The notes under the pieces are model-generated. The model was given only the letters and a program-made list of their open reading frames with translations, did no database searches and was not told the DNA's origin. Shown one piece after another: positions 27,359 to 63,417 of a stretch of 64,000 nucleotides of DNA. Every line of letters begins with the position of its first letter. Positions within the stretch are counted from its first letter, which is position 1. Source of the DNA: Haliscomenobacter hydrossis DSM 1100 (GTDB lineage Bacteria; Bacteroidota; Bacteroidia; Chitinophagales; Saprospiraceae); NCBI RefSeq assembly GCF_000212735.1, contig NC_015510.1, positions 6,883,001 through 6,947,000 on the forward strand, read 5' to 3'. A program made the position numbers and the translations under genes.

Positions 27359-27374
27359 TCAACAATACAAAGCG

Positions 27375-32483: not shown

Positions 32484-33809
32484 ATGATACAACAAGTCCT
32501 TTTTGTACTGATTGCCGGGGCATCACTGGGTTACGCGGTGCTGCAATTCCTCAAAATTCGGCGCAACATCAAGCTGGGTAAAGATGAGCCGATTGCAGGA
32601 GATACTGCCGAGCGTTGGCGCAATGTATTGCTCATTGCGCTGGGACAAAAAAAGATGTTCACGCGCATGATTCCGGCGGTATTGCACTTGTTCATCTACG
32701 TGGCATTTGTGCTGACCCAGGTGGAACTGCTCGAAATTTTTGTGGACGGGATCAGCGGGCAACACCGCGTGTTTTGGCCGATCCTCGGTGGTTTTTACAC
32801 CTTTGTGATCAGTTTTATCGAAATATTATCGGTTTTGGCGCTGGTGGCTACCATCGCCTTTTTGGCTCGGCGCAATGTCTTGCGCGTGGCGCGTTTTCAC
32901 CAACCGGAAATGAAAGGCTGGCCTTTTAAAGACGCCAACTACATCCTGTTTCTGGAAGTAGCACTGATCTTTTTCATTTTCCTGATGAACAGCGCCGATA
33001 TGGCCCGTCACAATGATGAGTATGGTTTTGTGGTCAGCCAGTTTTTGTCGCCCATCTGGTCGGGAACGGGAGATGGCCTTTTGCATGTTTTGGAGCGCAT
33101 CGGCTGGTGGGGACACATTCTGGTGGTTTTTGCCTTTTTGAATTACCTGCCTTTTTCCAAACACTTGCACATCATTTTGGCTTTCCCGAATACCTTCTAC
33201 GCGCGTTTGGCGCCACGGGGAGAAATGGAGAACATGCCCGAAATCATGAATGAGGTGAAAAACATGCTGGGGCTACCCGTTGAAAATGCAGGTGCCGAAG
33301 TCAACATGGACAACCTGGAGTTTGGGGCCAACGATGTTTTTTCCTTGTCCTGGAAAAACGTGCTGGACGCCTACAGTTGTACCGAATGTGGTCGCTGTAC
33401 CTCCGTGTGCCCCGCTAACCTGACGGGCAAAAAATTGTCCCCCCGCAAAATCGTGATGGACATCCGCGACCGTGCGGAGGAGATTGGCAAAAAACTCGAT
33501 ACCAAAGATACCCAATACGCCAAAGACAAAGCCCAGCCCCTGAGCGCGGCCAACTTTGAGGATGGCAAAAGCCTGTTCGATTACATCAGCCGCGAAGAAA
33601 TCCACGCTTGCACGACTTGTAATGCTTGCGTAGAAGCCTGCCCCGTGCTGATCAATCCGCTGGAACCCATTCTGAAACTGCGCCGCTACGAAATCCTGAG
33701 CCTCTCGGAAGGCCCTTCAGAATGGTTGCCCATGTTCAACAGCATGGAGAACAACGGCGCGGTGTGGGCGATGTCGGTTGAACGGGAAGCGTGGAAAAAT
33801 GAATTATAA
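32484..33809 (+). CDS. Membrane (Fe-S) protein, HdrD/NarI-like electron-transfer subunit
   Basis: 441 residues. The first 240 residues contain about five to six membrane segments (VLFVLIAGASLGYAVL, LHLFIYVAFVLTQ, FYTFVISFIEILSVLALVATIAF and others), resembling a quinone-interacting NarI-like domain. Two 4Fe-4S motifs follow: CTECGRCTSVCP near residue 300 and CTTCNACVEACP near residue 375. With the next gene it forms a split version of the HdrD-like/GlpC-type complexes that pass electrons between soluble carriers and the quinone pool. The electron donor is not identifiable. Confidence 0.88.
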   Translation: MIQQVLFVLIAGASLGYAVLQFLKIRRNIKLGKDEPIAGDTAERWRNVLLIALGQKKMFTRMIPAVLHLFIYVAFVLTQVELLEIFVDGISGQHRVFWPILGGFYTFVISFIEILSVLALVATIAFLARRNVLRVARFHQPEMKGWPFKDANYILFLEVALIFFIFLMNSADMARHNDEYGFVVSQFLSPIWSGTGDGLLHVLERIGWWGHILVVFAFLNYLPFSKHLHIILAFPNTFYARLAPRGEMENMPEIMNEVKNMLGLPVENAGAEVNMDNLEFGANDVFSLSWKNVLDAYSCTECGRCTSVCPANLTGKKLSPRKIVMDIRDRAEEIGKKLDTKDTQYAKDKAQPLSAANFEDGKSLFDYISREEIHACTTCNACVEACPVLINPLEPILKLRRYEILSLSEGPSEWLPMFNSMENNGAVWAMSVEREAWKNEL

Positions 33810-33812
33810 ACT

Positions 33813-33903
33813 AAAAGTGAAAAGTGAAAAGTGAAAAATGAAAAACAACCTAAATAGGCACTTTTCACTTTTCACTTTTCACTTTTCGCTTTTCACTTTT
33901 CAC
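33813..33903. repeat. AAAAGTG heptamer tracts forming a palindrome before a start codon
   Basis: Tandem AAAAGTG units (33813-33837) face the complementary CACTTTT units (33858-33903). Together they fold into one long imperfect hairpin between two co-directional Fe-S genes. The right arm ends two bases before the ATG at 33906, leaving no normal ribosome-binding site. The same heptamer appears at 31244-31285. Confidence 0.8.
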
Positions 33904-33905
33904 TC

Positions 33906-34691
33906 ATGAATGTGTTTACCATGGCCGAAATGGCCGCCGAAGGCCGTGAGCCGGAAATATTGTTTTGGGTAGGATGTGCGGGTAGTTTTGATGCTCGGGC
34001 ACAAAAAGTCACCAAGGCTTTTTGCCAAATCCTGGATACCGTAGGCATGTCTTTTGCCATTTTGGGCAATGAAGAGATGTGTACTGGTGATCCTGCCCGT
34101 CGGGCGGGCAATGAGTTTGTGTTTCAGATGCTGGCCCTGCAAAACGTACAAACCCTGAATGGGTACAACATCAAAAAAATCGTGACGGCTTGTCCGCACT
34201 GTTTCAATACCCTTAAAAACGAATACCCGGCGCTGGGGGGCAACTACGAGGTGGTGCACCACAGCCAACTGCTACAAGAACTGATCAACACGGGTCGGGT
34301 GAAAATGCAGGAAGGGGGGACGTTTAAAGGCAAAAAAATAACTTACCACGATTCTTGTTACCTGGGGCGGGTGAATGGGGTGTACGAAGCGCCGCGCAGT
34401 GTGCTGGCCTCGTTGGACGCCCAACTGGTAGAGATGAAGCGCTGCAAAACCAACGGATTGTGCTGTGGCGCTGGCGGTGCCCAAATGTTCAAAGAAGACG
34501 AGCCGGGCGAAAAACGCATCAACCTGGAACGCGCCGAGGAAGCCCTGGCTACCGGTGCGGGCATCATTGCCGCCAATTGTCCGTTTTGTCTGACCATGAT
34601 GCAAGACGGTGTCAAGGCCAAAGACAAGCAGGATGAGGTGATGGTGTATGATTTGGCAGAACTGATTGTGGACAGCATGGTAAAAATTTAA
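33906..34691 (+). CDS. CCG-domain (Fe-S)-binding protein, HdrB/GlpC-like
   Basis: 261 residues. Two cysteine-rich CCG-type domains are seen: WVGCAGSFD with ACPHCFNTLKNEYP, and YHDSCYLGRVNG with LCCGAGGAQM. These motifs bind unusual iron-sulfur clusters in heterodisulfide reductase, glycolate oxidase and lactate-utilisation complexes. N-terminal domains are missing relative to fused homologues, consistent with the previous gene providing the 4Fe-4S and membrane parts. The start is directly next to a palindrome. Confidence 0.9.
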   Translation: MNVFTMAEMAAEGREPEILFWVGCAGSFDARAQKVTKAFCQILDTVGMSFAILGNEEMCTGDPARRAGNEFVFQMLALQNVQTLNGYNIKKIVTACPHCFNTLKNEYPALGGNYEVVHHSQLLQELINTGRVKMQEGGTFKGKKITYHDSCYLGRVNGVYEAPRSVLASLDAQLVEMKRCKTNGLCCGAGGAQMFKEDEPGEKRINLERAEEALATGAGIIAANCPFCLTMMQDGVKAKDKQDEVMVYDLAELIVDSMVKI

Positions 34692-34700
34692 AATCTTCCG

Positions 34701-35834
34701 ATGCCTGAATTACACCTGAACACCCAAGCGGTTCACGCGGGGTACGAGCCTGAAAAACAATTCGGTTCCGTTAGTCAACCGCTGATACTGACGACTACCT
34801 TTGAGCGGGAAAATGGGGTGCCACGGGAGCACATTTATACCCGCAACGAAAATCCCAACCGGATCAGTCTGGAGACCAAGTTGGCCATTTTGGAAGGTGG
34901 GGCCGACGCCATTGCCTTTGCATCTGGTCAAGCTGCCGCTTTTGCGGTGTTTCAGGCGGTGTTGGAGCCGGGGGCACATGTGCTGATTCCCGACGATTGT
35001 TACCACGGCATCCGTACTTTGTTTGCTCAGGTGTACCAAGGCTGGCAAATCAACTGCGAAGAGGTGGACATGAGCGTGGTGAGCCATGTGGCTGATGCCA
35101 TTCGCCCCGAAACCAAACTTATCTGGATCGAAACGCCGACCAACCCCAAGCTAAAAATATTCGACATTCAAGGCATTGCCAAAGTGGCTACCGATAAAGG
35201 AATTCCGGTAGCCTGCGATAATACCTGGGCGACGCCGTTTTTTCAGCGCCCCTTTGAGCTGGGGGTAGACATCGTGATGCACTCCACCACCAAGTACTTT
35301 GGGGGCCATTCGGATATTTTGGGGGGAGCGGTGATTTTGAGAGAAAAAGGAACCATTGCTGCGCGAATTCGGGCCATTCAGGGTACCGGAGGGGGGGTGC
35401 CTTCGCCGTTTGATTGTTGGTTGCTCAACCGCAGTTTGGCTACTTTCCCCTTGCGCATGCCTGTACATTCCAGCAATGCACAGGCCCTGGCGCAGTTTTT
35501 GCACCATCAGGCGGCGATTGAGCGGGTGTATTATCCGGGCTTGCCTACTCATCCGAACCATGAAGTTGCCAAGACCCAAATGCAAGGTGGATTTGGAGGA
35601 ATGTTGTCGATTGAAGTAAAAGGAGGGATGGAAAAAGCGATTGAACTGGCCGAAAACCTGCAAATTTTTACCCATGCCACCAGTTTGGGTGGGGTAGAGA
35701 GTTTGATTGAACACCGGCGCTCGGCAGAGGGATTGCATCCGCGGAGCCCGGACAATTTGCTGCGGGTATCGGTGGGGATTGAGTTTGTGGGGGATTTGAT
35801 CAGGGATTTTGAGCAGGCGCTGGCGCGCTTGTGA
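34701..35834 (+). CDS. PLP-dependent trans-sulfuration enzyme (cystathionine synthase/lyase type)
   Basis: 377 residues of the Cys/Met metabolism PLP family. Visible landmarks are the tyrosine/arginine segment YTRNENPNRISLETKLA, the PLP Asp in ACDNTWATPFFQRP, the Schiff-base Lys in HSTTKYFGGHSDILGG (near residue 200) and the C-terminal SLGGVESLIEHRRSAEG. Cystathionine gamma-synthase, gamma-lyase, beta-lyase and methionine gamma-lyase share these features and cannot be told apart here. It starts nine bases after the CCG-domain gene. Confidence 0.9.
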   Translation: MPELHLNTQAVHAGYEPEKQFGSVSQPLILTTTFERENGVPREHIYTRNENPNRISLETKLAILEGGADAIAFASGQAAAFAVFQAVLEPGAHVLIPDDCYHGIRTLFAQVYQGWQINCEEVDMSVVSHVADAIRPETKLIWIETPTNPKLKIFDIQGIAKVATDKGIPVACDNTWATPFFQRPFELGVDIVMHSTTKYFGGHSDILGGAVILREKGTIAARIRAIQGTGGGVPSPFDCWLLNRSLATFPLRMPVHSSNAQALAQFLHHQAAIERVYYPGLPTHPNHEVAKTQMQGGFGGMLSIEVKGGMEKAIELAENLQIFTHATSLGGVESLIEHRRSAEGLHPRSPDNLLRVSVGIEFVGDLIRDFEQALARL

Positions 35835-39952: not shown

Positions 39953-41414
39953 CTGGACTTTATCCCTTTAGAAAAGAAAAGAACTGGGTGAAAAAGCATT
40001 ATTTTGAAGGTTCTCAAGCTATCAAGATATATGCAATTACCACCCGAGTTCCAGGACTCAATATCCGTTTTTTCTTGTGGATTTAGCAAGCGCACGTGGG
40101 AAAAAATAAAATTACTATTGCTAGGAGCCTTGCTATGTCCAGGTAGTCGAACTGTATGCAATATCCTGCGTACACTTGGACTTGAACACGAAAGTAGTTT
40201 TCATAAATATCATCGAGTATTGAGTTGTGCCAAATGGTCAGCTTTGAAGTTGTCCAGCATACTCCTAAAATTGCTAGTGGATGCTTTTATCCCTGCACAT
40301 GAACCGCTAGTTTTTGCTATCGATGAAACAATCGAGCGGCGTTGGGGTGCCAAGATTAAAAAGCGAGGGATTTACCGTGATCCAGTACGATCCTCCAAGA
40401 GCCACTTTGTCAAGTGTAGTGGACTGCGTTGGATGGTATTGGCCTTGCTTACTCCTTTACCTTGGCTTGACCGAACTTGTTGGGCATTACCTGTACTGAG
40501 CGCTTTATGCCCTTCTGAACGGTATTATCAAAACCGACCACAAGTTCGCTCCGCTAAAAAACTGACACATTGGGCTTGGCAACTCATCCAATGGTTACAT
40601 CGTTATGCACTTCCTTTGAAACGTGCTGTTTATCTGGTCGGGGATGGCTCGTATGCCACCTACGAACTACTCGATCAAGGTATCCGACAAAACATCAACC
40701 TCATCGTGCGCATGCGCCTTGACGCTCGGCTCTTCCATTTTCCTACCCCCAATCCGCCTCACAAAAGAGGCCCCAAACCCATCATTGGCAAGCGAATCAT
40801 GGATATGGAACAACGACTCAACGACGGGCGCATCAAGTGGACTAAAGTTCATTTTAGTCAATGGTATGATCGAACTAACCAAACCATGCTCATTACCTCC
40901 GGTAAAGCGCTCTGGTATAAGGCTTCTTCGCCCATTGTTCCCATTCAATGGGTACTCATCAAAGACCCTTTGAATGAAATGGAGCCCGCGCTGCTCGCTA
41001 CTACTGATCTCAAACTCGATCCGGTGCAAATCATCAACTTCTTTGTTCGCCGTTGGCGCATTGAAGTTACTTTTGCTGAAGTGCGCAGACATCTGGGGGT
41101 CGAAACCCAACGACAATGGTCTGACTTGGCGATTGAACGTTCAACTCCTCTGCTCTTTTCCGTTTTTTCCATCACAACCTTATTGGCGCATTCCCTTCAT
41201 CAAAGCAGCCCTATCAAACCATTTACCACCGCTTGGTATCCTAAGCATATCGTCTCTTTTTCCGATGTCCTCCGTGCTGTAAAAACGGCTATCTGGAGGC
41301 ATAATCAATTTTTAACCTCCTCCAAAAATACCCTTGTTGATAATTATATTCATAACATCAGGTATCTTTGGAATGTCCTTATTGGCGCTTCTGCCTAAAA
41401 GGGATAAAGTCCAG
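39953..41414 (+). mobile_element. Complete insertion sequence with 17-bp terminal inverted repeats
   Basis: A 1462-bp element bounded by exact 17-bp inverted repeats (CTGGACTTTATCCCTTT at 39953-39969; complement at 41398-41414). It is flanked by the 5-bp direct duplication CTTAG (39948-39952 and 41415-41419). One intact transposase gene fills it. The intact ends, duplication and reading frame indicate a recent, probably still active insertion. It separates the Wza/Wzc export genes from the rest of the exopolysaccharide cluster. Confidence 0.93.
40031..41398 (+). CDS. IS transposase, DDE superfamily (IS701/IS4-like)
   Basis: 455 residues from the ATG at 40031 (a TTG at 40004 is a less likely start). 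The first catalytic Asp is in FAIDETIERRWG (near 97), with the typical continuation GIYRDPVRSSKSHFVKCSGLRW; the second is in YLVGDGSYATYELL (near residue 208) and the Glu in RRWRIEVTFAEVRRHLGVETQRQW (near 345). This pattern fits DDE_5-type transposases near IS701. The stop codon overlaps the right inverted repeat by one base. No frameshift or stop is seen. Confidence 0.9.
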   Translation: MQLPPEFQDSISVFSCGFSKRTWEKIKLLLLGALLCPGSRTVCNILRTLGLEHESSFHKYHRVLSCAKWSALKLSSILLKLLVDAFIPAHEPLVFAIDETIERRWGAKIKKRGIYRDPVRSSKSHFVKCSGLRWMVLALLTPLPWLDRTCWALPVLSALCPSERYYQNRPQVRSAKKLTHWAWQLIQWLHRYALPLKRAVYLVGDGSYATYELLDQGIRQNINLIVRMRLDARLFHFPTPNPPHKRGPKPIIGKRIMDMEQRLNDGRIKWTKVHFSQWYDRTNQTMLITSGKALWYKASSPIVPIQWVLIKDPLNEMEPALLATTDLKLDPVQIINFFVRRWRIEVTFAEVRRHLGVETQRQWSDLAIERSTPLLFSVFSITTLLAHSLHQSSPIKPFTTAWYPKHIVSFSDVLRAVKTAIWRHNQFLTSSKNTLVDNYIHNIRYLWNVLIGASA

Positions 41415-50501: not shown

Positions 50502-52400
50502 ATGTGTGGAATCAATGGAGTCCTATTCCTATCTCATCAACCCCAAATACAAACCGAACAAACCTGTCAAACCGTTCTGCAATTAATGAATGACACGATT
50601 GCACATCGTGGACCAGATTCGGATGGTATTGTTGTAAAATCACCCGTAGGTTTTGGTTTCAGGCGGCTGAGCATCATAGATCTCTCCTCTTCGGCAAATC
50701 AACCCATGTTGAGTAAAGATGGCCAGGTAATGCTCATTTTTAACGGAGAAATTTACAATTACCTGGAAATAAAGCAACAATTGATGGCCTTAGGCCACAC
50801 CTTCAGAACGGATTCAGATACCGAAGTGATCCTCAATAGTTATTTGGAATACGGAGAATCATGTATACACCATTTCAATGGGATGTGGGCTTTTGCCATC
50901 TATGATTTCCGTAAAAAAAGATTGTTTTGTTCCAGAGACCGACTGGGGGTGAAACCCTTTTACTATTGCGTCAAAGATCAATTGTTGTATTTTTCCAGTG
51001 AATTAAAAAGTTTACACGCGGTATTGAAATTACAACAGGCCAATCTGCCCAAAGTTTACGAATATTTGGCCTATGGCTATCGAATCAACGATGGAGAAAC
51101 GTTTTTTGAAGATTGTTACGAGTTATTGCCTGGAACAAATCTGCTTGTGGAAGGAGCGCAACTTATCTTACATCGGTATTGGAAGTTAGGCGAAAATTTA
51201 TTTCAACACGATCCCGCACTAAGCTTTCAGGAAGAATATGTCAAGCTCTTTGAAAGTGCAGTAAAGCTGCGCTACCGCAGTGATGTTCCGGTAGCCTTAT
51301 TGTTGAGTGGTGGGCTTGATTCTACTTCTATTGCCAAAGTGACCGACAATTTAATACAACGTGGAGAATTGAGCCAAAATGAAATCCATGCGTTTATTGC
51401 TTCCTTTCCAGGTTTCGATGAAGATGAAACCCCCATTGCCCGAGAATTCATTAAGACTTGCAAAAACATTCACTTGCATGAAATGGTAATCGACAGCGAA
51501 AAAACTGTGGATGATCTTGAAAACACTATTTATGCCCTGGACCATCCTGTGTTTTCCTTCAACGTAGTTGCCCACCACAACATCATGCAAGCCTGTAAGC
51601 AAAGGGGAATTAAAGTGGTGCTCAATGGGCAAGGAAGTGATGAAGCATTTGCGGGGTACGATCGGTATATTTCCGGTGCGTATTTGGTGAATCAACTCAT
51701 TTCCCGCGATGGGAATTTTGTAGAAGAATTTAAAGCATTAAACAAATTTAACGGTTATTCAAGCTTCTTTTTGTGTGCTCAAATGCTTAAATCGGTTATG
51801 AATCAGCGTTTTTCGGCTTATCTCAGGGCTAAGTATCAGGAAAAATCATTGGCTTGTTTGGACCCCGGGTTTGTCAAAGACGCTTACGATCATTACAAGC
51901 CCACTTATCGTTTTTCAACCCAAGGGAACAATTTTACCAACTACCTCTTGAAACAAATTAAATACGAAGGACTCAACCAGATCCTTCACTACGAAGATGT
52001 CTCCTCCATGTCGCAATCCATTGAAGTCCGTTCCCCATTTATGGACTATCGAATGATGGAGTTTGCTTTTTCCATTCCCAATGATTTAAAATTTAAAAAT
52101 GGCGTCACCAAACTCATTCAAAGACAAACGATTGGGAAAATGCTGCCGAAATCCATCACGGAAAGCCGTAAGAAAATCGGATTTCGAGCGCCGTTTGTTG
52201 ATTATCTTTCGAGTGATCCCAATTTTAAAATCTATGTTTCTGACATGATGAATTCACAGCGTTTTTCTGCTAAAAAAATCTGGAAAGCGAATAAAATCCA
52301 ACATGTATTTGAAAATGCAAAGCAGCATCCCAATTTCCCCTTTTGGAGAATCATTAACCTGGAGGTATGGTCAAAAGTTTACAACATCACCAATTTGTAA
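50502..52400 (+). CDS. Asparagine synthase-type amidotransferase
   Basis: 632 residues. The processed N-terminal Cys 2 (MCGING) begins a class II glutamine amidotransferase domain (LSIIDLSSSANQPM, FNGEIYNYLE, SDTEVILNSY). The ATP-pyrophosphatase domain has LLLSGGLDSTSIAK near residue 268 and LNGQGSDEAFAGYDRY. In polysaccharide clusters such enzymes amidate uronic acids or related carboxyl groups rather than making free asparagine; a nucleotide-sugar dehydrogenase further down (62125) could supply the acid. Asparagine synthesis itself cannot be excluded. Confidence 0.9.
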   Translation: MCGINGVLFLSHQPQIQTEQTCQTVLQLMNDTIAHRGPDSDGIVVKSPVGFGFRRLSIIDLSSSANQPMLSKDGQVMLIFNGEIYNYLEIKQQLMALGHTFRTDSDTEVILNSYLEYGESCIHHFNGMWAFAIYDFRKKRLFCSRDRLGVKPFYYCVKDQLLYFSSELKSLHAVLKLQQANLPKVYEYLAYGYRINDGETFFEDCYELLPGTNLLVEGAQLILHRYWKLGENLFQHDPALSFQEEYVKLFESAVKLRYRSDVPVALLLSGGLDSTSIAKVTDNLIQRGELSQNEIHAFIASFPGFDEDETPIAREFIKTCKNIHLHEMVIDSEKTVDDLENTIYALDHPVFSFNVVAHHNIMQACKQRGIKVVLNGQGSDEAFAGYDRYISGAYLVNQLISRDGNFVEEFKALNKFNGYSSFFLCAQMLKSVMNQRFSAYLRAKYQEKSLACLDPGFVKDAYDHYKPTYRFSTQGNNFTNYLLKQIKYEGLNQILHYEDVSSMSQSIEVRSPFMDYRMMEFAFSIPNDLKFKNGVTKLIQRQTIGKMLPKSITESRKKIGFRAPFVDYLSSDPNFKIYVSDMMNSQRFSAKKIWKANKIQHVFENAKQHPNFPFWRIINLEVWSKVYNITNL

Positions 52401-52433
52401 GTTTGCCATTCTTACTACTTTAATACCGGAATC

Positions 52434-53603
52434 ATGAAAGTGTTGTATGACCACCAAATTTTTGAGAGTCAAAAATTTGGTGGGGTTTCAAAGTATTTTG
52501 GGGAATTGATCTTCAATTCAGGATCAATGGATGAAGTCAACAATGATATTTCTATATTGCATTCTGACAATGGTTATTTGAAATCACTAGAAACAAATAA
52601 TTTTTTGCCACTTCCCCAACGCCCCCTATCGTACAATGACAATAGCGACAACAGCTATTCCATCGTAAAAAGATTCTTTGATCGTTTTTTCTATTTAAAA
52701 AAACTGGCCAAGTGTTACAAAGAAAATAAGGAAGAAAGTATTCAAAAAATAATTACTCAAAACTTTGATGTTTTTCATCCCACCTACTATGATGATTATT
52801 TTCTGAAACACATCAAAAACAAACCTTTTGTGCTCACTGTACACGACCTTACCCACCAAATATTTCCGGAATACTTTTCTCCGAAGTGGATTGACAAGAG
52901 CAAAGAAATGTTGGAGAATGCCAGAAGGATCATTGTCGTTTCGGAAAATACCAAAAAAGATTTGATGGATTTTTATGACATCAAGGACAACAAAATTGAT
53001 GTGGTTTATTTAGCCTCCTCCATATTGGAAGGCGCTGTGATGAACTTATCGGTCAATATGCCCCCGAACATGGAAAAATACCTCTTGTATATTGGGAGTA
53101 GAGCCTCATATAAAAATTTTTATTTTTTTGTACAAGCCATTGTACCTTTATTCAGAGAAGACAAAGGATTGTACCTCCTGTGTACAGGTGACAAATTTTC
53201 AGAAGAAGAATTGTTTTTCTTTGCAAAACTTGGTATCGCGGCCAACATCAAACACATTTACGCTACGGAAGACGAGCTACCCTACATCTATCAAAATGCG
53301 GTTGCATTTGTGTATCCATCACTATACGAAGGATTTGGTATGCCCATCCTGGAAGCGTTTGCTTGTGGCTGCCCGGTCATTTGCAGTCAGGCTAGCTCAT
53401 TTCCAGAAATAGCTGGACCAGCCGCGATTTATTTTGAACCAAAAAACAAGCAATCCATCTATAAAGCAGTGTACAGTATGCTGAACGATAATGTTTTGCG
53501 AACAGCAATGATTGTTAAAGGATTTTTGCAGCTTGAAAAATTTTCATGGTTGAACACCGCAGCCCAAACCCGAGAAGTGTATTCCAAAGCGATTGCTGAA
53601 TAG
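52434..53603 (+). CDS. GT4-family glycosyltransferase
   Basis: 389 residues, GT-B. Typical pieces are VLTVHDLTHQIFPEYFS, IIVVSENTKKDLMDFY, LLYIGSRASYKNF (the GxRxxKN donor-site segment) and AFVYPSLYEGFGMPILEAFACGCPVICSQASSFPEIAGPAAIYFEP, with the EX7E motif in the last. It is similar to mannosyltransferase-type WbaZ/MtfB proteins, but the donor cannot be assigned. AT-rich like the two preceding genes. Confidence 0.92.
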   Translation: MKVLYDHQIFESQKFGGVSKYFGELIFNSGSMDEVNNDISILHSDNGYLKSLETNNFLPLPQRPLSYNDNSDNSYSIVKRFFDRFFYLKKLAKCYKENKEESIQKIITQNFDVFHPTYYDDYFLKHIKNKPFVLTVHDLTHQIFPEYFSPKWIDKSKEMLENARRIIVVSENTKKDLMDFYDIKDNKIDVVYLASSILEGAVMNLSVNMPPNMEKYLLYIGSRASYKNFYFFVQAIVPLFREDKGLYLLCTGDKFSEEELFFFAKLGIAANIKHIYATEDELPYIYQNAVAFVYPSLYEGFGMPILEAFACGCPVICSQASSFPEIAGPAAIYFEPKNKQSIYKAVYSMLNDNVLRTAMIVKGFLQLEKFSWLNTAAQTREVYSKAIAE

Positions 53604-53612
53604 TGTTATTCC

Positions 53613-54731
53613 ATGAAAAACGTATTAATCATCCAGAAGTCTCTGGTACAATACCGCAAAGATTTTTTTGATCAGCTCAGAAATGCCTTACATGAAGAAG
53701 GGGTTACCCTGTCTTTGGTTTATGGGAAGGAAAATGAAAAAGACGGATTAAAAAATGATGAAGTCGATTTGGAATGGAGTACATACATTCCCAATAAAAT
53801 GATCAAACTTGGCGGGGGAAACCTGATTTGGCAGCCTTGCCTCCGCGAGTTGAAACACCAGGACTTGGTCATTGTTGAATCAGCCAACAAGCTGATTCTG
53901 AATTACCTCTTAATGATCGCCAGGCATTTTTCAAAGCTTAAACTGGGTTTTTGGGGACATGGTCGCAACATGCAAGATGCACCGGATAGCCGGGCCAATC
54001 GATTTAAATACCTCTTCCTGAAAAATTGCAATTGGTGGTTTGCCTATACCGCTGGCGTAAAGGAATTTCTGATTGAAAAAGGTTACCCCGCAGCCCAAAT
54101 TACAGCGGTACAGAACGCAATTGATACCCGATTGTCGCTCGAACAATATGCACAGACCACTGACGCGGAAGCCGCGCAACTGAAAGCTGAACTTGGCATC
54201 AACAGCCAGCAGGTGGGCATTTTTTGTGGGGGAATGTATCCCGAAAAACAGATCGATTTTTTACTGGAATGTTGCCTGAAGATTAAGGAGCGATTGCCTG
54301 ATTTTCACATGATCTTTATTGGTTCGGGTATTGATGCTCAACAAGTTCGCAGTGCGGCGGATCAATACCGCTGGATTCATTATGTCGGCCCAAAATTTGG
54401 GAAAGACCGCGTGGTTTACTTCAAAATTGCTTCCCTTTTTTTGATGCCAGGCCTGGTCGGATTGGCGATTCTGGATTCTTTTGCGTTTGAAACCCCCATC
54501 GTAACCACCAATTATGAATTTCACAGCCCAGAAATCGAATACCTTGAACCAGGAAAAAACGGCATCATAGTTGATAACACGATTGATGATTATTCCCATG
54601 CAGTTGTCGACATATTGTCAACTGGAAAATATGAACTGTTGCTGGATTACTGCAAAATCTCTGCCGAGCAATATACGATCGAGGCAATGGTAGAAAACTT
54701 TAAAAACGGGATTTTGCAAGCCCTAAAATGA
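53613..54731 (+). CDS. GT4-like glycosyltransferase
   Basis: 372 residues, GT-B. N-terminal LIIQKSLVQYRKDFFDQLRNAL, middle LGFWGHGRNMQ, then VGIFCGGMYPEKQIDFLLEC (donor-site start) and LFLMPGLVGLAILDSFAFETPIVTT. It fits GT4-like enzymes. It begins nine bases after its neighbour. Donor and linkage unknown. Confidence 0.85.
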   Translation: MKNVLIIQKSLVQYRKDFFDQLRNALHEEGVTLSLVYGKENEKDGLKNDEVDLEWSTYIPNKMIKLGGGNLIWQPCLRELKHQDLVIVESANKLILNYLLMIARHFSKLKLGFWGHGRNMQDAPDSRANRFKYLFLKNCNWWFAYTAGVKEFLIEKGYPAAQITAVQNAIDTRLSLEQYAQTTDAEAAQLKAELGINSQQVGIFCGGMYPEKQIDFLLECCLKIKERLPDFHMIFIGSGIDAQQVRSAADQYRWIHYVGPKFGKDRVVYFKIASLFLMPGLVGLAILDSFAFETPIVTTNYEFHSPEIEYLEPGKNGIIVDNTIDDYSHAVVDILSTGKYELLLDYCKISAEQYTIEAMVENFKNGILQALK

Positions 54732-54780
54732 CCAGCTTTTAAGCACGAGTTTTTTGTGCCCAATTTCAAACACCACCAAG

Positions 54781-55917
54781 ATGGAACACAAAATACCATT
54801 CAACCAGCCTTTTCTCACCGGAAAAGAAGCACAATACATTCAAGAGGCATTGCAATCCCGCAAATTAGCGGGAAATGGTACGTTCACCCAAAAATGCCAA
54901 AACTATTTTCAGGATCGCTATCATTTCCATAAATGTCTTCTGACAACTTCTTGCACGGACGCGTTGGAAATGGCGGCCATTCTTTTGGAGATTCAACCTG
55001 GAGATGAAGTCATTATGCCCTCTTACACTTTTGTGTCTACGGCCAACCCCTTTATACTCAGAGGTGCAAAAATTGTATTTGCCGATTCCAGAGCTGATCA
55101 TCCGGGAATCGACGAAAAGGGCATCGAAGACTTGATTACCACCAAAACCAAAGCCATTGTTGTGGTTCACTATGCCGGTGTGGCTTGCGATATGGACATC
55201 GTCATGGACATTGCCAACCGCCATGGTGTATGGGTTGTGGAAGATGCTGCACAAGCCATTGATGCGTATTATAAAGGCAAACCGCTAGGCGGGATTGGTC
55301 ACCTGGCGGCATTTTCCTTCCACGAAACCAAAAACATCGTGTGTGGGGAAGGAGGTATGCTGGTGGTCAACGACAAAAAAATGGCCAAACGATCAGAAAT
55401 CATCTGGGAAAAAGGAACCAATCGATCGGCATTTTTCAGAGGCGAGGTAGACAAATACGGCTGGGTTGATGTCGGGTCTTCATTTTTGCCTTCAGAAATT
55501 ATTGCTGCATTTTTATATGCACAGCTTGAAGACCTTGAACGAATTCAGCAAAAAAGAGCTCAAATTTGGAAAGCTTATTGTCAGGGTTTACAAGACCTGG
55601 CCAGTCGTGAAAAAATCAGACTTCCCTTCATTCCTGCATTTGCCAGCAATAACGCTCATATGTTTTATATCCTGTTGAAAAATCAGGAAGAACGTTCGGC
55701 ATTAATTGGCCACCTTAAATCAAACAACATTCAAGCCGTCTTCCATTATTTATCCCTCCACGAAAGTCCCTTTTATAAAGAAAAACACGCTGGGAGAAAC
55801 CTCGTATACAGCGATCAGTATACGGATTGTTTGCTCCGACTGCCCTTGTTTTTTGAATTAACCGAGCCAGAGCAGCACAAAATTTCGGCTACCATTCAGC
55901 ATTTTTTTATCCATTGA
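54781..55917 (+). CDS. wecE: WecE/RffA-like dTDP-4-keto-6-deoxyhexose aminotransferase
   Basis: The ATG at 54781 is chosen over a GTG at 54754; 378 residues, nearly the length of E. coli WecE. The sequence follows WecE closely: IPFNQPFLTG, SRKLAGNGTFT, TTSCTDALEMAAILL, IQPGDEVIMPSYTFVSTANP, VHYAGVACDMD and the PLP Lys in SFHETKN near residue 183. WecE makes dTDP-4-amino-4,6-dideoxy-D-galactose (thomosamine/fucosamine precursor) from dTDP-4-keto-6-deoxyglucose. The genes RmlA and RmlB that provide the substrate are not in the window and must be elsewhere. Confidence 0.88.
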   Translation: MEHKIPFNQPFLTGKEAQYIQEALQSRKLAGNGTFTQKCQNYFQDRYHFHKCLLTTSCTDALEMAAILLEIQPGDEVIMPSYTFVSTANPFILRGAKIVFADSRADHPGIDEKGIEDLITTKTKAIVVVHYAGVACDMDIVMDIANRHGVWVVEDAAQAIDAYYKGKPLGGIGHLAAFSFHETKNIVCGEGGMLVVNDKKMAKRSEIIWEKGTNRSAFFRGEVDKYGWVDVGSSFLPSEIIAAFLYAQLEDLERIQQKRAQIWKAYCQGLQDLASREKIRLPFIPAFASNNAHMFYILLKNQEERSALIGHLKSNNIQAVFHYLSLHESPFYKEKHAGRNLVYSDQYTDCLLRLPLFFELTEPEQHKISATIQHFFIH

Positions 55918-57869: not shown

Positions 57870-58946
57870 ATGGAAAAAATCGGGAAAGTAAACCCTTCAT
57901 TTTGGAACCGCAAAAAAGTGTACCTGACCGGCCACACGGGTTTCAAGGGAAGTTGGCTTTCACTTTGGCTACACAGTATGGGGGCGGAGGTAAAGGGATA
58001 CGCGCTTGATCCGCCTACCGCACCAGCCCTTTTTGAGGTGGCAAAAATTGCTGATTTTGTGGAAACAGAAATTGGCGATATCCGCGATTTGGACAAACTT
58101 ACCCAGAGCATCCAAACCTTCAATCCGGATGTTTTGCTGCATTTAGCCGCTCAGTCTATCGTCCTCAAATCATATGTTGATCCAATCGAAACCTACACTA
58201 CCAATGTGCTTGGCACGGCCAATGTGTTGCAAGCTGGTCGGAAGCTACCCAATCTAAAAGCCATAGTGTCGGTCACCACGGATAAATGTTACGAAAACCG
58301 GGAGTGGGTGTGGAGTTATCGGGAAAATGAACCATTGGGTGGACGGGATCCTTACAGCTCCAGCAAGGCCTGCGCCGAATTGGTCACTGCATCATTCCGG
58401 GACTCCTTTTTTACTGATCCGCAAGGGCCACAAGTGGCTACCGCCAGGGCTGGAAATGTGATTGGTGGTGGAGATTGGACTGAAAACGGGTTAATCGCAG
58501 ACATCATCCGGGCATTCGGCCAGGCTAAACCCGTCATTGTGCGGAACCCCTTGGCCATCAGGCCCTGGCAGCATGTGTTGGAACCTTTAGGTGGATACCT
58601 GATGCTTGCGGAAGCCTTGTATACAGACGGGGCACAATACGCGCAGGCCTGGAATTTTGGTCCAAGCGAAGAGGATTGTAAACCCGTGAATTGGATTTTG
58701 GATCGTATGGTCAACCTGTGGGGAGATGGAGCGTCGTGGGAATTGGATCAGGATGCCAATCCACACGAAGCCCGATTTTTAAAATTGGATAGTTCAAAAG
58801 CAGCTGCTTATTTGGGTTGGACCCCCCAGTGGAGACTGGAAGGGGTACTCGATAATGTAGTCCAATGGCATCGGGAATGGCACGCCGGGGCAGACATGAC
58901 CCACCGCTGTTTGAACGACATTGCTACTTACACTAAGTTGATGTGA
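57870..58946 (+). CDS. rfbG: CDP-glucose 4,6-dehydratase
   Basis: 358 residues, extended SDR fold. NAD site TGHTGFKGSW, substrate and catalytic segments SVTTDKCYENREWVWSYRE, DPYSSSKACAELV (YxxxK-type) and NVIGGGDWTENGLIADIIRAF all follow RfbG (DdhB). It converts CDP-glucose to CDP-4-keto-6-deoxy-D-glucose. Its partner cytidylyltransferase is encoded at 61223. A composite palindrome begins around the stop codon. Confidence 0.94.
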   Translation: MEKIGKVNPSFWNRKKVYLTGHTGFKGSWLSLWLHSMGAEVKGYALDPPTAPALFEVAKIADFVETEIGDIRDLDKLTQSIQTFNPDVLLHLAAQSIVLKSYVDPIETYTTNVLGTANVLQAGRKLPNLKAIVSVTTDKCYENREWVWSYRENEPLGGRDPYSSSKACAELVTASFRDSFFTDPQGPQVATARAGNVIGGGDWTENGLIADIIRAFGQAKPVIVRNPLAIRPWQHVLEPLGGYLMLAEALYTDGAQYAQAWNFGPSEEDCKPVNWILDRMVNLWGDGASWELDQDANPHEARFLKLDSSKAAAYLGWTPQWRLEGVLDNVVQWHREWHAGADMTHRCLNDIATYTKLM

Positions 58947-59103
58947 ATTCTGAATTAATTCTGTTGATAGTCAACGCGGTGCGACTTCTCCGAAGTCGAC
59001 CGAATGACTTCGGAGAAGTCACACGTTTGTAGAACATATTGATCGTCAGTTGTTCCGACTTCGGAGAAGTCGCACCTTTCTTCCGCATTAATTCAGAACT
59101 CAC
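58943..59103. repeat. Composite palindrome starting at the rfbG stop
   Basis: The outer arms 58943-58959 and 59087-59103 pair over 17 bp with one mismatch. Inside, GTGCGACTTCTCCGAAGTCG and its complement, plus an additional CTTCGGAGAAGTCACAC unit, form further hairpins. The rfbG stop codon (58944-58946) lies in the left arm. Confidence 0.8.
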
Positions 59104-59121
59104 CTTAAGTTAAAAGCCAAA

Positions 59122-59673
59122 ATGATTTTTCAGGAAACTACCCTGCGTGGAGCTTACCTCATCGACCTGGAGCCCTTTACCGATGAGCGCGGTATGTTTG
59201 CCCGCACGTTTTGCAAACAGGAGTTTGCTGCCATTGGACACAACAAGGAGTTTGTGCAATTCAATCATTCCCAGAACCAGCGCCAGGGTACTTTACGGGG
59301 CATGCATTTTCAAAAAGCACCGTTCTCGGAAATAAAACTGATCCGCTGCATTCGGGGGCGTGTTTTTGATGTCATCGTTGATTTGCGAGCCCAATCCCCT
59401 ACATTTTTACAATACTACGGGGTGGAACTTTCGGAAAGCAACCTCCGCATGATCTACGTACCAGAGGGATTCGCCCACGGCTTTCAAACCCTGGAAGACC
59501 ATACCGAACTCATTTATCACCATACTGCTTTTTATACTCCCGGGCAAGAAAGGGGGATTCACTACAAGGATCCCCGCATCAAGATCGAATGGCCTGCGGC
59601 CACAAGCATCATTTCTGAAAAAGACCAAAATTATCCATTCATCGCGGATACGTTTGCCGGGTTGGCAGGGTAA
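59122..59673 (+). CDS. RfbC-like sugar 3,5-epimerase family protein
   Basis: 183 residues of the dTDP-4-dehydrorhamnose 3,5-epimerase cupin fold. Recognisable segments: DLEPFTDERGMFARTFC, QFNHSQNQRQGTLRGMHFQ (with the conserved catalytic His), IRGRVFDVIVDLRAQSPT and YVPEGFAHGFQTL. In this CDP-sugar context it probably epimerises a CDP-4-keto-6-deoxyhexose at C3 and/or C5, rather than serving rhamnose synthesis. It is separated from its neighbours by palindromes on both sides. Confidence 0.9.
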   Translation: MIFQETTLRGAYLIDLEPFTDERGMFARTFCKQEFAAIGHNKEFVQFNHSQNQRQGTLRGMHFQKAPFSEIKLIRCIRGRVFDVIVDLRAQSPTFLQYYGVELSESNLRMIYVPEGFAHGFQTLEDHTELIYHHTAFYTPGQERGIHYKDPRIKIEWPAATSIISEKDQNYPFIADTFAGLAG

Positions 59674-59688
59674 TTTCGCGCTTGTTTA

Positions 59689-59850
59689 AGAGCATGTCTA
59701 AAATTTTTTGTTTTGCTGCAAATGGCCCGATTGGGGTTGAATTTCGTTCCGAAAATGCTCATTTAGCGCTGCTAAACTCCGCTTTCCGAGCCTCATTCAA
59801 CCCCAATCGGCCTCATTTTCGCTTAAAACAAAAATATTTAGACATGCTCT
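59689..59850. repeat. Long imperfect palindrome between epimerase and methyltransferase genes
   Basis: The termini AGAGCATGTCTAAA and TTTAGACATGCTCT, followed by TTTTTGTTTT-type stretches, and inner arms CCGATTGGGGTTGAAT (about 59728-59743) and complement (59795-59810) pair in register. The right arm ends five bases before the next start codon. The organised, insertion-like termini suggest a miniature element. Confidence 0.75.
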
Positions 59851-59854
59851 AAGT

Positions 59855-61156
59855 ATGACCAACATGAATCCACACAACATTAAACCTCCCTCCTCAAGCC
59901 GCAGTTGTTGCCGATTTTGTGCTTCCGAATTAAAGCACAATGTGCTTGATTTGGGCATGTCGCCCCTCTGTCAAAAACACATTACCCCTCAGCAAACCAA
60001 CGAAGCGGAAAAATTTTATCCACTTCATGTATACGTCTGTGAGCAATGTTGGCTGGTGCAATTGGAAGAATTTGCTACGCCGGAGGAGATCTTTGCGGAA
60101 GATTACGCCTATTTTTCTTCCTATTCAGACACCTGGTTGGAACATTGCCGCCAGTATGCGGAATTGATGATCGACCGATTCGGTTTTGACGCCAAGCAAC
60201 GGGTTGTGGAAATCGCCAGTAATGATGGGTATCTTTTGCAATGGTTTGTCCAAAAAGGGATTCCTGTATTGGGGATAGAACCTGCCGAAAACGTTGCTGC
60301 CGTAGCCATCGAAAAGGGAATTCCCACCGAAGTCCTGTTTTTTGGAACCGATACCGCCCAACACCTGGTGGCTAAATATGGCCAGGCTGATTTGTTGTTG
60401 GGCAACAATGTCCTGGCGCATGTTCCCGACATCAATGATTTTGTAAAAGGGATGAAGAACATGCTGGCCCCCGGTGGCCTGATCACCATGGAATTTCCGC
60501 ATTTAAAAAACCTGATTGAAGGAAACCAATTCGACACCATTTACCATGAACATTTCTCTTACCTGTCGTTCGTAGCGGTCAATCGGATTTTTGCCCAGCA
60601 TGGCATCACGCTGTTTGATGTACAGGAATTGCCCACCCATGGCGGTTCGCTGCGAATTTTTGGTCGGCATAGCGAAGACCAATCCAAGCCCATCACCGCA
60701 GCAGTGCAGGAACTTTTGCATCACGAACGGCAACTGGGTATGGAAACTTTGGCATACTATGCTGCTTTTGAAGAAAAAGTCAAAGAGACCAAGCGAAACC
60801 TACTCAGCTTTTTAATCGAAGCAAAACGTGCCGGAAAAACCATCGTTGGTTATGGCGCTCCGGGAAAAGGCAATACCCTGTTAAATTATTGCGGCATTCG
60901 CAGTGATCTTTTGGATTATACCGTTGATCGAAGCCCACATAAACAGGGCAATTTTTTGCCTGGTACCCGCATTCCCATTTACCACCCGGATAAAATCAAG
61001 GAGACCCGCCCAGACTATGTAATGATCCTGCCCTGGAACCTCAAAACAGAGATCAGCCAACAGATGGCTTACATCCAGGAATGGGGAGGAAAGTTTGTCA
61101 TCCCTATCCCCGCAGCGCAGGTGTTTGATCCAGTGGTATTTGAACTGGTGGCTTAA
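59855..61156 (+). CDS. SAM-dependent C-methyltransferase for nucleotide sugars
   Basis: 433 residues. The N-terminal zinc-binding motif (CRFCASE with a later CEQC), the SAM motif VVEIASNDGYLLQWF (near residue 110), the MEFPHLKNLI and YHEHFSYLS segments and the C-terminal Methyltransf_14 domain (GYGAPGKGNTLLNYCG, ILPWNLKTEI) match TylC3/NovU/EvaC-type enzymes, which put a methyl group on C3 of 4-keto deoxy sugars. Together with RfbF, RfbG and the epimerase it predicts a CDP-linked branched-chain, C-methylated deoxyhexose. Confidence 0.9.
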   Translation: MTNMNPHNIKPPSSSRSCCRFCASELKHNVLDLGMSPLCQKHITPQQTNEAEKFYPLHVYVCEQCWLVQLEEFATPEEIFAEDYAYFSSYSDTWLEHCRQYAELMIDRFGFDAKQRVVEIASNDGYLLQWFVQKGIPVLGIEPAENVAAVAIEKGIPTEVLFFGTDTAQHLVAKYGQADLLLGNNVLAHVPDINDFVKGMKNMLAPGGLITMEFPHLKNLIEGNQFDTIYHEHFSYLSFVAVNRIFAQHGITLFDVQELPTHGGSLRIFGRHSEDQSKPITAAVQELLHHERQLGMETLAYYAAFEEKVKETKRNLLSFLIEAKRAGKTIVGYGAPGKGNTLLNYCGIRSDLLDYTVDRSPHKQGNFLPGTRIPIYHPDKIKETRPDYVMILPWNLKTEISQQMAYIQEWGGKFVIPIPAAQVFDPVVFELVA

Positions 61157-61222
61157 GGGCATACTTACAAAAAATTTAAACATGCGCTAACCCTCATTTT
61201 ACCCCCCCAAATTGAACCCATT

Positions 61223-61999
61223 ATGAAAGTTGTACTTTTCTGTGGCGGTCAAGGAACCCGCCTACGCGATTATTCAGAAACCATCCCCAAACCGATGGTA
61301 AACGTCGGGTTCCGCCCCATTTTGTGGAACATCATGAAATACTATGCTCATTTTGGACACAACGATTTCATTTTGGCCCTTGGGTATAAGGCCGATGTCA
61401 TCAAGAATTATTTTATCAGCTACAATGAAACCCTTTCCAACGATTTTGTCTATTCCGAGGGTGGAAAGCAAATAGAATTGTTGAATTCCGATATTGCGGA
61501 TTGGAAAATCACCTTTGTGGATACGGGTATTCAATCAAACATCGGCATGCGCTTGATGAGATTGCGAGAATACCTTGAAGGAGAAGAAATGTTCCTGGCC
61601 AATTATGCAGATGGATTAACCGATATGCATTTGCCAAACATGATCGAACATTTTGTGCAAAAGCCGGATAAGGTAGCCAGTTTTATGACCTACCAGCCTA
61701 CGGCCAGTTTTCACATTGTTCAGGCAGAAGACAATGGTGACGTTTCCGCGATTGAACCCATTTCCTACGCCAATTTGTGGCTGAATACAGGCTATTTTAT
61801 TTTTAGAAAAAACATCTTCGATTACATCAATTATGGAGAGGAGTTGGTGGTAGAACCTTTTCATCGCCTGATTGAAAAAAAACTATTGGTTACCTATCAC
61901 CATACTGGTTTTTGGCAACAAATGGATACTTTTCGAGATAAAATGATCCTGGATGAACTACAGGATAAGGGAAATCCACCCTGGCAGGTTTGGGGTTAA
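61223..61999 (+). CDS. rfbF: Glucose-1-phosphate cytidylyltransferase
   Basis: 258 residues, nucleotidyltransferase fold. FCGGQGTRLRDYSETIPKPMV (contiguous near the N-terminus), GYKADVIKNYF, FVDTGIQSNIGMRL, NYADGLTDMHL and HTGFWQQMDTFRDK follow RfbF. It makes CDP-glucose from CTP and glucose-1-phosphate, the first step of the pathway continued by RfbG. The gap to the next gene is 125 bases and shows no clear signal. Confidence 0.93.
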   Translation: MKVVLFCGGQGTRLRDYSETIPKPMVNVGFRPILWNIMKYYAHFGHNDFILALGYKADVIKNYFISYNETLSNDFVYSEGGKQIELLNSDIADWKITFVDTGIQSNIGMRLMRLREYLEGEEMFLANYADGLTDMHLPNMIEHFVQKPDKVASFMTYQPTASFHIVQAEDNGDVSAIEPISYANLWLNTGYFIFRKNIFDYINYGEELVVEPFHRLIEKKLLVTYHHTGFWQQMDTFRDKMILDELQDKGNPPWQVWG

Positions 62000-62124: not shown

Positions 62125-63417
62125 TTGTATTCTGAATTGCTCAATAAAGAAAAAACCATTGCCGTCATTGGATTGGGTTACGTTGGTCTTCCTTTGGCGC
62201 TTGAATTGGCCAAACACTTCCGGGTGATTGGTTTTGACATCAATGTTGAACGCGTTGCCTTAATGCAACAAGGGCTGGATCCTACCCGTGAGCTGGATGC
62301 CTCCGTTTTTCAACATGTAGACGTACAATTTACCGCTGATCCTGCTGATTTGCGCAACGCTCATTTTTTTATCATTGCCGTACCGACCGATATCAATGAG
62401 CACAAAGTGCCCAACCTGATCCCGCTGCAAAAAGCCTCGGAAAGTGTGGGCAAAGCCCTCAAACCCGGTGATTATGTGGTCTACGAATCAACGGTATACC
62501 CGGGGTGTACGGAAGAAGACTGTCTGCCCATCCTGGAACAATATAGTGGACTTAAAGCGCCCGAGGATTTCAAAATTGGTTATTCGCCCGAACGCATCAA
62601 TCCCGGCGATAAAACCCGTCCCCTCGCTACCATTCTCAAAGTAGTATCGGGTTGTGATGCCCCTGCCCTGGAAACCATTGCTAAAGTGTATGGGCTAATC
62701 ATCACTGCTGGAATCTACGAGGCTCCGAGCATCAAAGTTGCTGAAGCCGCTAAAGTCATTGAAAACATCCAGCGTGACCTGAACATATCCCTCGTCAATG
62801 AGCTGGCGATGGTTTTTGATAAAATGGATATTGATACCAATGCAGTGCTGGCGGCGGCGGCAACAAAATGGAATTTTCACCGCTATTCTCCTGGGTTGGT
62901 AGGGGGGCATTGCATCGGGGTAGATCCCTATTATCTTTTGCACAAAGCCCGCCAATTGGGCATTGAACCACAAGTGATTGCTGCTGGCCGCCGCATCAAT
63001 GACGCCATGCCCGTCTGGATTGCCAAAAACCTGGTACAAACCCTGCTGCAAAAAGGCAAAAACCCGAGCAGCAGTAAAGTACTGGTGATGGGCATTACCT
63101 TCAAAGAGGATGTTGCCGACATCCGCAATTCTAAAGTTGTCGATCTGGTCAAGGAATTGATGTCGTACTCCATCCATGTACAAATCACCGACCCCTGGGC
63201 CTCGCCAAATGAAGTGGCCCATGAGTACAAGTTGTCACTGACAGAGCAGGTCGGCAAGAACTACGACGCCATTGTGCTCGCCGTCGGGCATCAGGAATAC
63301 AAAAAACTGAGTATGGATTATTTCAAAGAGGTCTCCCATGGGGAGTTGATCTTCTTTGATTTGAAAGGATTATTCCAGCAGCAACGGAGTGAGGCAGATT
63401 ATTACTGGACATTGTAG
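62125..63417 (+). CDS. UDP-sugar 6-dehydrogenase, TviB/WbpA-like
   Basis: 430 residues. The start is TTG at 62125: an in-frame stop lies at 62107 and no ATG occurs before the NAD-binding GLGYVGLPLALEL motif. Catalytic Cys in GGHCIGVDPYYL (near residue 262) and substrate segments KVAEAAKVIENIQRDLNIS and GITFKEDVADIRNSKV identify the UDP-HexNAc/GlcNAc-type dehydrogenases (Vi TviB group). It oxidises C6 in two steps to a uronic acid. The sugar, probably UDP-GlcNAc or UDP-GalNAc, is not fixed. The acid may be the substrate for the AsnB-like amidotransferase. Confidence 0.92.
   Translation: MYSELLNKEKTIAVIGLGYVGLPLALELAKHFRVIGFDINVERVALMQQGLDPTRELDASVFQHVDVQFTADPADLRNAHFFIIAVPTDINEHKVPNLIPLQKASESVGKALKPGDYVVYESTVYPGCTEEDCLPILEQYSGLKAPEDFKIGYSPERINPGDKTRPLATILKVVSGCDAPALETIAKVYGLIITAGIYEAPSIKVAEAAKVIENIQRDLNISLVNELAMVFDKMDIDTNAVLAAAATKWNFHRYSPGLVGGHCIGVDPYYLLHKARQLGIEPQVIAAGRRINDAMPVWIAKNLVQTLLQKGKNPSSSKVLVMGITFKEDVADIRNSKVVDLVKELMSYSIHVQITDPWASPNEVAHEYKLSLTEQVGKNYDAIVLAVGHQEYKKLSMDYFKEVSHGELIFFDLKGLFQQQRSEADYYWTL

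Follow-up and report, generated by a model that had tools for sequence, protein, structure and literature searches.

A gene module of Haliscomenobacter hydrossis that very probably makes a rare methyl-branched polysaccharide sugar

Which sugar is made by the gene module that begins at position 57870 of a 64,000-nucleotide stretch of the Haliscomenobacter hydrossis DSM 1100 chromosome (positions 6883001-6947000 of contig NC_015510.1; hereafter the window)? The organism was described in 2011 as a sheathed, non-pathogenic bacterium excreting so far unidentified polysaccharides (PMC3156403), and the module lies late in a polysaccharide cluster that also encodes export, P-loop, sugar-transferase and glycosyltransferase proteins. 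Reading of the open reading frames (ORFs) of the window places four co-directional genes at its core, whose predicted products act on sugars carried by cytidine diphosphate (CDP) or another nucleoside diphosphate (NDP):

57870-58946, + strand: RfbG, CDP-glucose 4,6-dehydratase (TIGR02622; identity to 1rkx)
59122-59673, + strand: RmlC-type NDP-4-keto-sugar epimerase (TIGR01221; dTDP_sugar_isom)
59855-61156, + strand: TylC3-type sugar C-methyltransferase (PF08421 + PF13489 + PF08484)
61223-61999, + strand: atypical RfbF relative, predicted sugar-1-phosphate cytidylyltransferase (TIGR02623 under cut-off; RfbF fold)

Very probably, these four genes form the heart of a module that supplies the surface polysaccharide with a rare methyl-branched sugar. 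The likeliest product is a CDP-linked C-methyl-6-deoxyhexose that probably undergoes further modification, perhaps including amination at C4.

A first-pass annotation of this DNA held that RfbF and RfbG make CDP-4-keto-6-deoxyglucose, and the RfbG half of this claim stands. RfbG scored 487.6 bits against TIGR02622 (cut-off 278.45), is 58% identical over 352 residues to the solved CDP-glucose-4,6-dehydratase 1rkx, carries the motifs TTDKCYEN and YSSSK, and, in a tree built from 1rkx and 24 neighbourhood RfbG sequences, clustered with 1rkx at a support of 0.95. The RfbC-like epimerase and the TylC3-type C-methyltransferase named in the same annotation were both borne out. The epimerase belongs to the RmlC family (TIGR01221, 187.7 bits against a cut-off of 155.75; Pfam dTDP_sugar_isom, 2.2e-67), and its alignment to 1dzr retains the His, Tyr and Asp positions that we take to be the RmlC catalytic residues; C3, C5 or both are its predicted sites of epimerisation. 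The methyltransferase combines an N-terminal zinc-binding domain (PF08421, Methyltransf_13, 91.9 bits), a class I methyltransferase domain (PF13489, 51.5) and a C-terminal Methyltransf_14 domain (PF08484, 234.5), each over its cut-off, which is the architecture of the TylC3/TcaB9 3-C-methyltransferases. Its closest solved relative is TylC3, the D-mycarose 3-C-methyltransferase (4rv9, E 9.6e-89). The YHEH of TylC3 aligns with that of the H. hydrossis enzyme (230-233), and this motif is invariant, together with C19, C22, C62 and C65, in all seven aligned sequences, H. hydrossis included. The RfbG, RmlC and TylC3-type assignments together make it a well-supported prediction that a CDP-4-keto-6-deoxyhexose is C-methylated beside its keto group and epimerised.

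The RfbG, RmlC-type and C-methyltransferase genes recur as neighbours across many phyla. The methyltransferase was present in 13 of the 148 genomes searched as relatives (H. hydrossis counted), and no fewer than 586 stretches from named genomes contained it; the titles of the best 80 stretches, which were the ones used, name Bacteroidota, Cyanobacteria, Planctomycetes, Proteobacteria, Nitrospirae and others. Near the first methyltransferase, second and more distant members of the TylC3-type family (22-26% to that of H. hydrossis) were seen in loci L031, L032, L086 and L089, and L163 holds two copies, both 59% to the C-methyltransferase set. The C-methyltransferase of Mycolicibacterium sediminis (L092) adjoins a WecE-like (32%) aminotransferase, a pair that recalls kansosamine, the 4-amino-3-C-methyl sugar of mycobacteria.

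The RfbF half of the annotation did not hold up in the same way. The protein reached 215.4 bits against TIGR02623, short of the curated cut-off of 300.25; all 11 atypical RfbF proteins that were scored (this one and 10 others) fell below that cut-off. When 70 neighbourhood relatives were placed in a tree together with 1tzf, the H. hydrossis protein fell into a separate clade of 29 with a support of 1.0, the other 41 and 1tzf forming the remainder. Atypical and ordinary RfbF were separated by identity to the H. hydrossis protein (45%), a division that the tree then matched; the 41 ordinary proteins are 40 distinct sequences, one contig having been counted twice. Given that all 29 members form one such clade, a mere fast-evolving RfbF of a single species is ruled out. 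The H. hydrossis protein is 37% identical to 1tzf, and the structures nearest to its model (mean predicted local distance difference test score, pLDDT, 81.6) were 1wvc (Z 25.8, root-mean-square deviation 4.8, 250 aligned) and 1tzf (Z 25.6, deviation 4.2, 244 aligned), the next following at Z 22.9. As modelled, it has the RfbF fold. Taken with the residue changes described below, this points to an RfbF-fold enzyme with an altered sugar-phosphate pocket and not to a proven glucose-1-phosphate cytidylyltransferase.

The H. hydrossis genome (8,771,651 bases in 4 contigs, the largest of 8,371,686) holds no ordinary RfbF over the TIGR02623 cut-off by profile search (0/1). Seven of 17 other genomes searched with TIGR02623 have an ordinary RfbF over the cut-off and 10 have the atypical form; nine of these 10 are without an ordinary RfbF, which makes the atypical enzyme look like a substitute for the ordinary one, and one (G504) has both. 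One further RfbF relative, in G119 (175 bits), is counted in neither class.

Does the module end at 61999, as the first-pass annotation had it? It does not: further genes follow on the same strand, with coordinates past 64000 extrapolated from L002, the H. hydrossis locus itself.

62125-63417, + strand: UDP-sugar (uridine diphosphate sugar) 6-dehydrogenase, TviB-like (TIGR03026, 379.8 bits, cut-off 189.8)
63437-64090, + strand, the window ending at 64000: PIG-L family deacetylase (PF02585, 64.7 bits, cut-off 28.2)
64078-65505, + strand, extrapolated window coordinates: class III aminotransferase (NF004856, 717.4, cut-off 486)
65547-66317, + strand, extrapolated window coordinates: S-adenosylmethionine (SAM) methyltransferase
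66332-67609, + strand, extrapolated window coordinates: DUF4910 protein (DUF4910, E 5.8e-120)

Next in order come a beta-helix protein, gmd, fcl and an FkbM methyltransferase, with fcl some 4 kb past DUF4910. The beta-helix protein (1003 residues, L002:12676-15687) is 57% identical to the protein at the same place in L030. The PIG-L motifs GAHxDDIEIG and THxxxDxHQDHR are at least 90% kept in 27 sequences, that of H. hydrossis counted. The dehydrogenase between the atypical RfbF and PIG-L, which scored 476.5 against the TviB model NF011729 (under its cut-off of 592), probably serves another sugar. Because the module includes PIG-L, the aminotransferase and DUF4910, a plain C-methyl-6-deoxyhexose is probably not what it finally yields. 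The product predicted at first pass, a CDP-linked C-methyl-6-deoxyhexose, is upheld as far as the C-methylated CDP-4-keto-6-deoxyhexose goes and is doubtful as a plain final sugar.

The statement that the module has no RfbH agreed with our searches: among the nine proteins scanned, the only match was a weak one to the WecE-like protein at 54754 (132 bits against a cut-off of 423 for RfbH, the E1 dehydratase of 3,6-dideoxyhexose synthesis); the class III aminotransferase downstream exceeds the NF004856 cut-off. The WecE-like aminotransferase itself (54754-55917), upstream of the module, scored 581.7 bits against NF008687 (375), and a 72% relative likewise lies ahead of the module in L030, a locus from the same genus; judged by family, the H. 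hydrossis enzyme could aminate the 4-keto sugar of the module or of another pathway. The 4-ketoreductase suspected beyond the window was not seen. Searches with PF01370 and RmlD over 93 kb (6883001-6976000), aimed at reductases of the extended short-chain dehydrogenase/reductase (SDR) and RmlD types and not at adh_short reductases, gave rfbG, gmd and fcl only. The 29 kb after the window were read as ORFs, and Pfam put names to eight proteins of the initial 10 kb (to about 73610), with gmd and fcl the sole short-chain dehydrogenases among these eight; the ORFs of L003 and those at 32484-35834 and 50502-54731 were unscanned. We rejected a 4-ketoreductase just past 64000 on these grounds, with a gap left by the adh_short family.

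How the same genes are combined elsewhere was read from 93 loci picked by likeness to the H. hydrossis methyltransferase, namely the best 80 of the at least 586 confirmed stretches, L002, and 12 from a second source. L018, which shares a contig with L030, and L027, whose methyltransferase is only 32% alike, were excluded before counting. Among the resulting 91 loci, 59 were flanked by at least 3.5 kb upstream and at least 4 kb downstream; the H. hydrossis locus is included, its flank ending at the L002 start. Doublets between the two sources, beyond L018 and L030, may remain in the counts, and counts under other flank limits point the same way. The loci are related by descent and not independent, and Fisher values on the 59-locus counts serve as a guide only.

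The two RfbF forms came close to mutual exclusion in the flanked loci. The atypical form was present in 24 and the ordinary form in 32; 22 loci had the atypical form only, 30 the ordinary form only, five neither, and two (L031 and L036) both. Loci that join RfbG to the one or the other form differ in their remaining genes. The 11 flanked loci with ordinary RfbF and RfbG contain an SDR of family c24 or c27 in seven cases, an RMNT-type O-methyltransferase in seven, DUF4910 in one, and PIG-L or the aminotransferase in none, whereas the four with atypical RfbF and RfbG, H. hydrossis counted, have neither the SDR nor the O-methyltransferase (0 each), DUF4910 and PIG-L in all four, and the aminotransferase in three. 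Two further atypical RfbF and RfbG loci with short flanks (L046 and L081) both carry DUF4910, and no PIG-L was seen in L081. Family c24 was typed from one member (PF01370) and c27 from none; it is their context that suggests the name "ketoreductase" for these genes. The two sets of loci thus differ, as a correlation, in how the C4 ketone may be finished: often by a ketoreductase in the one, and by DUF4910 and PIG-L, often with an aminotransferase, in the other.

We propose the following pathway. The atypical RfbF would form a CDP-hexose from cytidine triphosphate (CTP) and a hexose-1-phosphate, glucose-1-phosphate being the likeliest, and RfbG, going by its family, would convert this CDP-hexose to a CDP-4-keto-6-deoxyhexose. 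Family membership likewise suggests that the TylC3-type enzyme would methylate C3, beside the C4 ketone, from SAM, and that the RmlC-type enzyme would epimerise C5 and/or C3. We hold these three steps, taken jointly, to be fairly probable. The fourth step is tentative, and we would sooner doubt it than rely on it: the C4 ketone would not be reduced by a dedicated linked ketoreductase and would instead be handled by the downstream genes, the class III aminotransferase most plausibly aminating C4, and PIG-L and DUF4910 acting on an amide. That the atypical RfbF replaces the ordinary one, and that RfbG has joined it repeatedly, speaks for CDP-glucose as the product of the atypical enzyme. The six loci that combine RfbG with atypical RfbF occupy four places on the RfbG tree (L002; L021; L046 with L080; L071 with L081), which by the simplest count would amount to three or four such joinings, as would be expected if the product of the atypical enzyme suits RfbG. 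Loss or exchange of RfbF forms may be a simpler reading of this tree than repeated recruitment of RfbG.

Several observations weigh against this pathway, at its entry and again at C4. At the entry, all 41 ordinary RfbF proteins have the Glu178-Lys179 pair (1tzf numbering), to which we ascribe sugar-phosphate binding, and none of the 28 atypical ones that reach this stretch does (the 29th ends before it); in these 28, V, I, M, A or L stands at position 179. Aligned pairwise to 1tzf, the H. hydrossis protein has a Glu opposite Glu178 and then a Pro, and only the loss of the Lys is certain for this protein. Arg162 is likewise absent from all 29 atypical proteins, against Arg in 40 and Lys in one of the 41 ordinary ones; Arg111 and Asp131 are retained in both groups, and R15, H46, S162 and H164 (H. 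hydrossis numbering) are typical of the atypical clade. The loss of the Glu-Lys pair and of Arg162 argues against plain glucose-1-phosphate as the substrate. The nearest support for the role of the pair comes from HddC, in which Lys24 and Lys157 are described as binding citrate (PMC6981941), Lys157 being the relevant residue; nothing on a sugar-phosphate Lys was found in PMC11046441.

PIG-L was detected in 23 of the 24 flanked loci with atypical RfbF and in 2 of the 35 without it, which hints at an N-acetylated substrate, and without the flank limit it lies no more than 200 bp from the atypical gene in 26 of 32 cases. When loci were sampled by likeness to the atypical RfbF and not to the methyltransferase, 9 of 395 genomes, H. 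hydrossis counted, matched at E 1e-60 or better, and the eight loci besides that of H. hydrossis comprised seven atypical and one ordinary (G442); PIG-L was present in all seven atypical loci, the methyltransferase in three and a DXR-like DRL gene in three. The lost Lys and this near-constant partner together favour a substrate other than glucose-1-phosphate. They would fit a new entry route in which the atypical RfbF uses CTP to activate an N-acetylated hexosamine-1-phosphate and PIG-L deacetylates the product, leading to a CDP-linked amino C-methyl-6-deoxyhexose. We consider this route unlikely, given that the H. hydrossis RfbG is of the ordinary CDP-glucose type with no ordinary RfbF to supply it, and that two Hymenobacter loci (L084 and L090) combine PIG-L with an ordinary RfbF and no atypical one. 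PIG-L can therefore work without the atypical RfbF, which weakens the idea that it acts solely on the product of that enzyme. There is a broader form, to which we also give little credence: a cytidylyltransferase with a rebuilt pocket would activate an N-acetylated or otherwise unusual hexose-1-phosphate, PIG-L would deacetylate it, and the C-methyltransferase, or a DRL enzyme in relatives, would branch the chain, giving CDP-linked branched amino sugars in many phyla. In L162, L165 and L168, atypical RfbF, PIG-L and the RmlC-type epimerase occur with a DXR-like (DRL_cat) oxidoreductase and no C-methyltransferase was found; L036, L037, L084 and L090, among others, have both. The DRL_cat oxidoreductase may offer an alternative means of branching the chain. 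With a presumed first enzyme of an unstudied type and PIG-L as its partner, the exact sugar of the H. hydrossis module cannot yet be named.

At C4, 4 of the 11 flanked loci with ordinary RfbF and RfbG are also without a linked c24/c27 gene, and the class III aminotransferase occurs in only 13 of 37 DUF4910 loci. It thus cannot be the general fate of C4, and we rejected it as a general decider of that fate. A reductase elsewhere in the genome could also serve the pathway, for example the RmlD over its cut-off at C1:1619315 of the same chromosome. The 4 loci without a linked c24/c27 gene and this RmlD would suit an ordinary CDP-glucose route completed by an unlinked 4-ketoreductase, with a plain CDP-C-methyl-6-deoxyhexose as its product and with PIG-L, the aminotransferase and DUF4910 serving other sugars; the seven ordinary loci that do have the SDR, and the fcl gene downstream of DUF4910, may be counted on its side as well. 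We find it quite improbable, however, for an RfbF that misses both the TIGR02623 cut-off and the Glu-Lys motif, in a locus with no extended-SDR ketoreductase nearby, and with PIG-L and DUF4910 present in every flanked locus of its kind. Elsewhere in the H. hydrossis genome, two adjacent PF01370 genes (G000:C1:3684312-3686134) have scores and sizes like those of a second gmd-fcl pair.

The preferred pathway depends on RfbG, whose place is taken in the nearest relatives, of the same genus or family (L030, L019 and L020), by c4, a 350-residue SDR without a curated name (also in L018, for example). The rfbG gene occurs in 16 of the 59 flanked loci and c4 in 35, never together; eight loci have neither. 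The c4 member of L020 matches PF01370 and no NCBIfam model over its cut-off, and the consensus of 43 members, SSCSxYG/YAxSK, in our reading resembles epimerases or reductases more than 4,6-dehydratases. The best match to c4 in the H. hydrossis genome is 31% identical. This pattern could mean that the pathway is a mosaic in which RfbG has replaced the c4 of the relatives, so that the sugar of the module is no longer made or is a different one. We regard that as very improbable: the module's ORFs are uninterrupted and of full length, and other phyla also pair RfbG with atypical RfbF (L046, L071, L080 and L081).

How does the module compare with known systems? The suggestion that its product was possibly not described in this group was not disproved by our literature searches, yet CDP-linked C-methyl deoxysugars are known in kind, and so are TylC3-type enzymes, a predicted virenose route and a link of DUF4910 to carbohydrate clusters. 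CDP-vinelose of Azotobacter vinelandii (CDP-6-deoxy-3-C-methyl-2-O-methyl-L-talose) is a CDP-linked C-methyl-6-deoxyhexose, as is the product predicted here. Loci with ordinary RfbF, RfbG, C-methyltransferase, RmlC, SDR and O-methyltransferase (for example L022, L055, L057 and L085) would fit its make-up; L002 differs from them in having no c24/c27 SDR and no RMNT-type O-methyltransferase, and in having PIG-L, the aminotransferase and DUF4910. Compared with the RfbF and RfbG of the CDP-based 3,6-dideoxyhexose pathways, the module is alike in its ordinary RfbG (58% to 1rkx) and in the fold of its RfbF (37% to 1tzf), and differs in that no RfbH was seen and that its RfbF lies under the cut-off and has no Glu-Lys pair.

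The activity of characterised TylC3/TcaB9-type enzymes had, as reported in 2012 (PMC3539893), been shown only with thymidine diphosphate (TDP) sugars, whereas the neighbouring genes in H. hydrossis point to CDP. The virenose pathway predicted for Coxiella in the same paper likewise has a TylC3-type enzyme acting on a 4-keto-6-deoxyhexose and, as described there, no obvious 4-ketoreductase for the TDP route; it was proposed with TDP or guanosine diphosphate (GDP), and differs in this from the CDP of H. hydrossis. A 2014 study tied DUF4910/CA_C2195, across many phyla, to carbohydrate clusters with genes for sugar epimerases/dehydratases, nucleotidyltransferases and sugar methylases (PMC4000134). 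The main text of that report has no words starting with PIG-L or cytid- (0 each); the H. hydrossis module has PIG-L and a predicted cytidylyltransferase. One paper, a Sinorhizobium comparison (PMC4053727), matched CDP-glucose together with C-methyltransferase. Our literature search, with most subscription journals outside its coverage, found no paper on the module or on "vinelose", and nothing on the atypical RfbF clade, its tie to PIG-L, or its alternation with ordinary RfbF among clusters for C-methyl sugars.

If the proposed pathway is correct, CDP-carried branched sugars are the product of a gene set that is widespread and has received little study, and the RfbF label should not be relied on to tell the specificity of its first enzyme. 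DUF4910 proteins would gain a candidate pathway, and the H. hydrossis polysaccharide a candidate sugar.

Two minor features of the window were recorded. A DDE_5 transposase gene lies at 40004-41398, within the polysaccharide cluster, and the G+C content falls to 0.36 at 26001-28000, the adjoining 2 kb blocks having 0.53 and 0.48.

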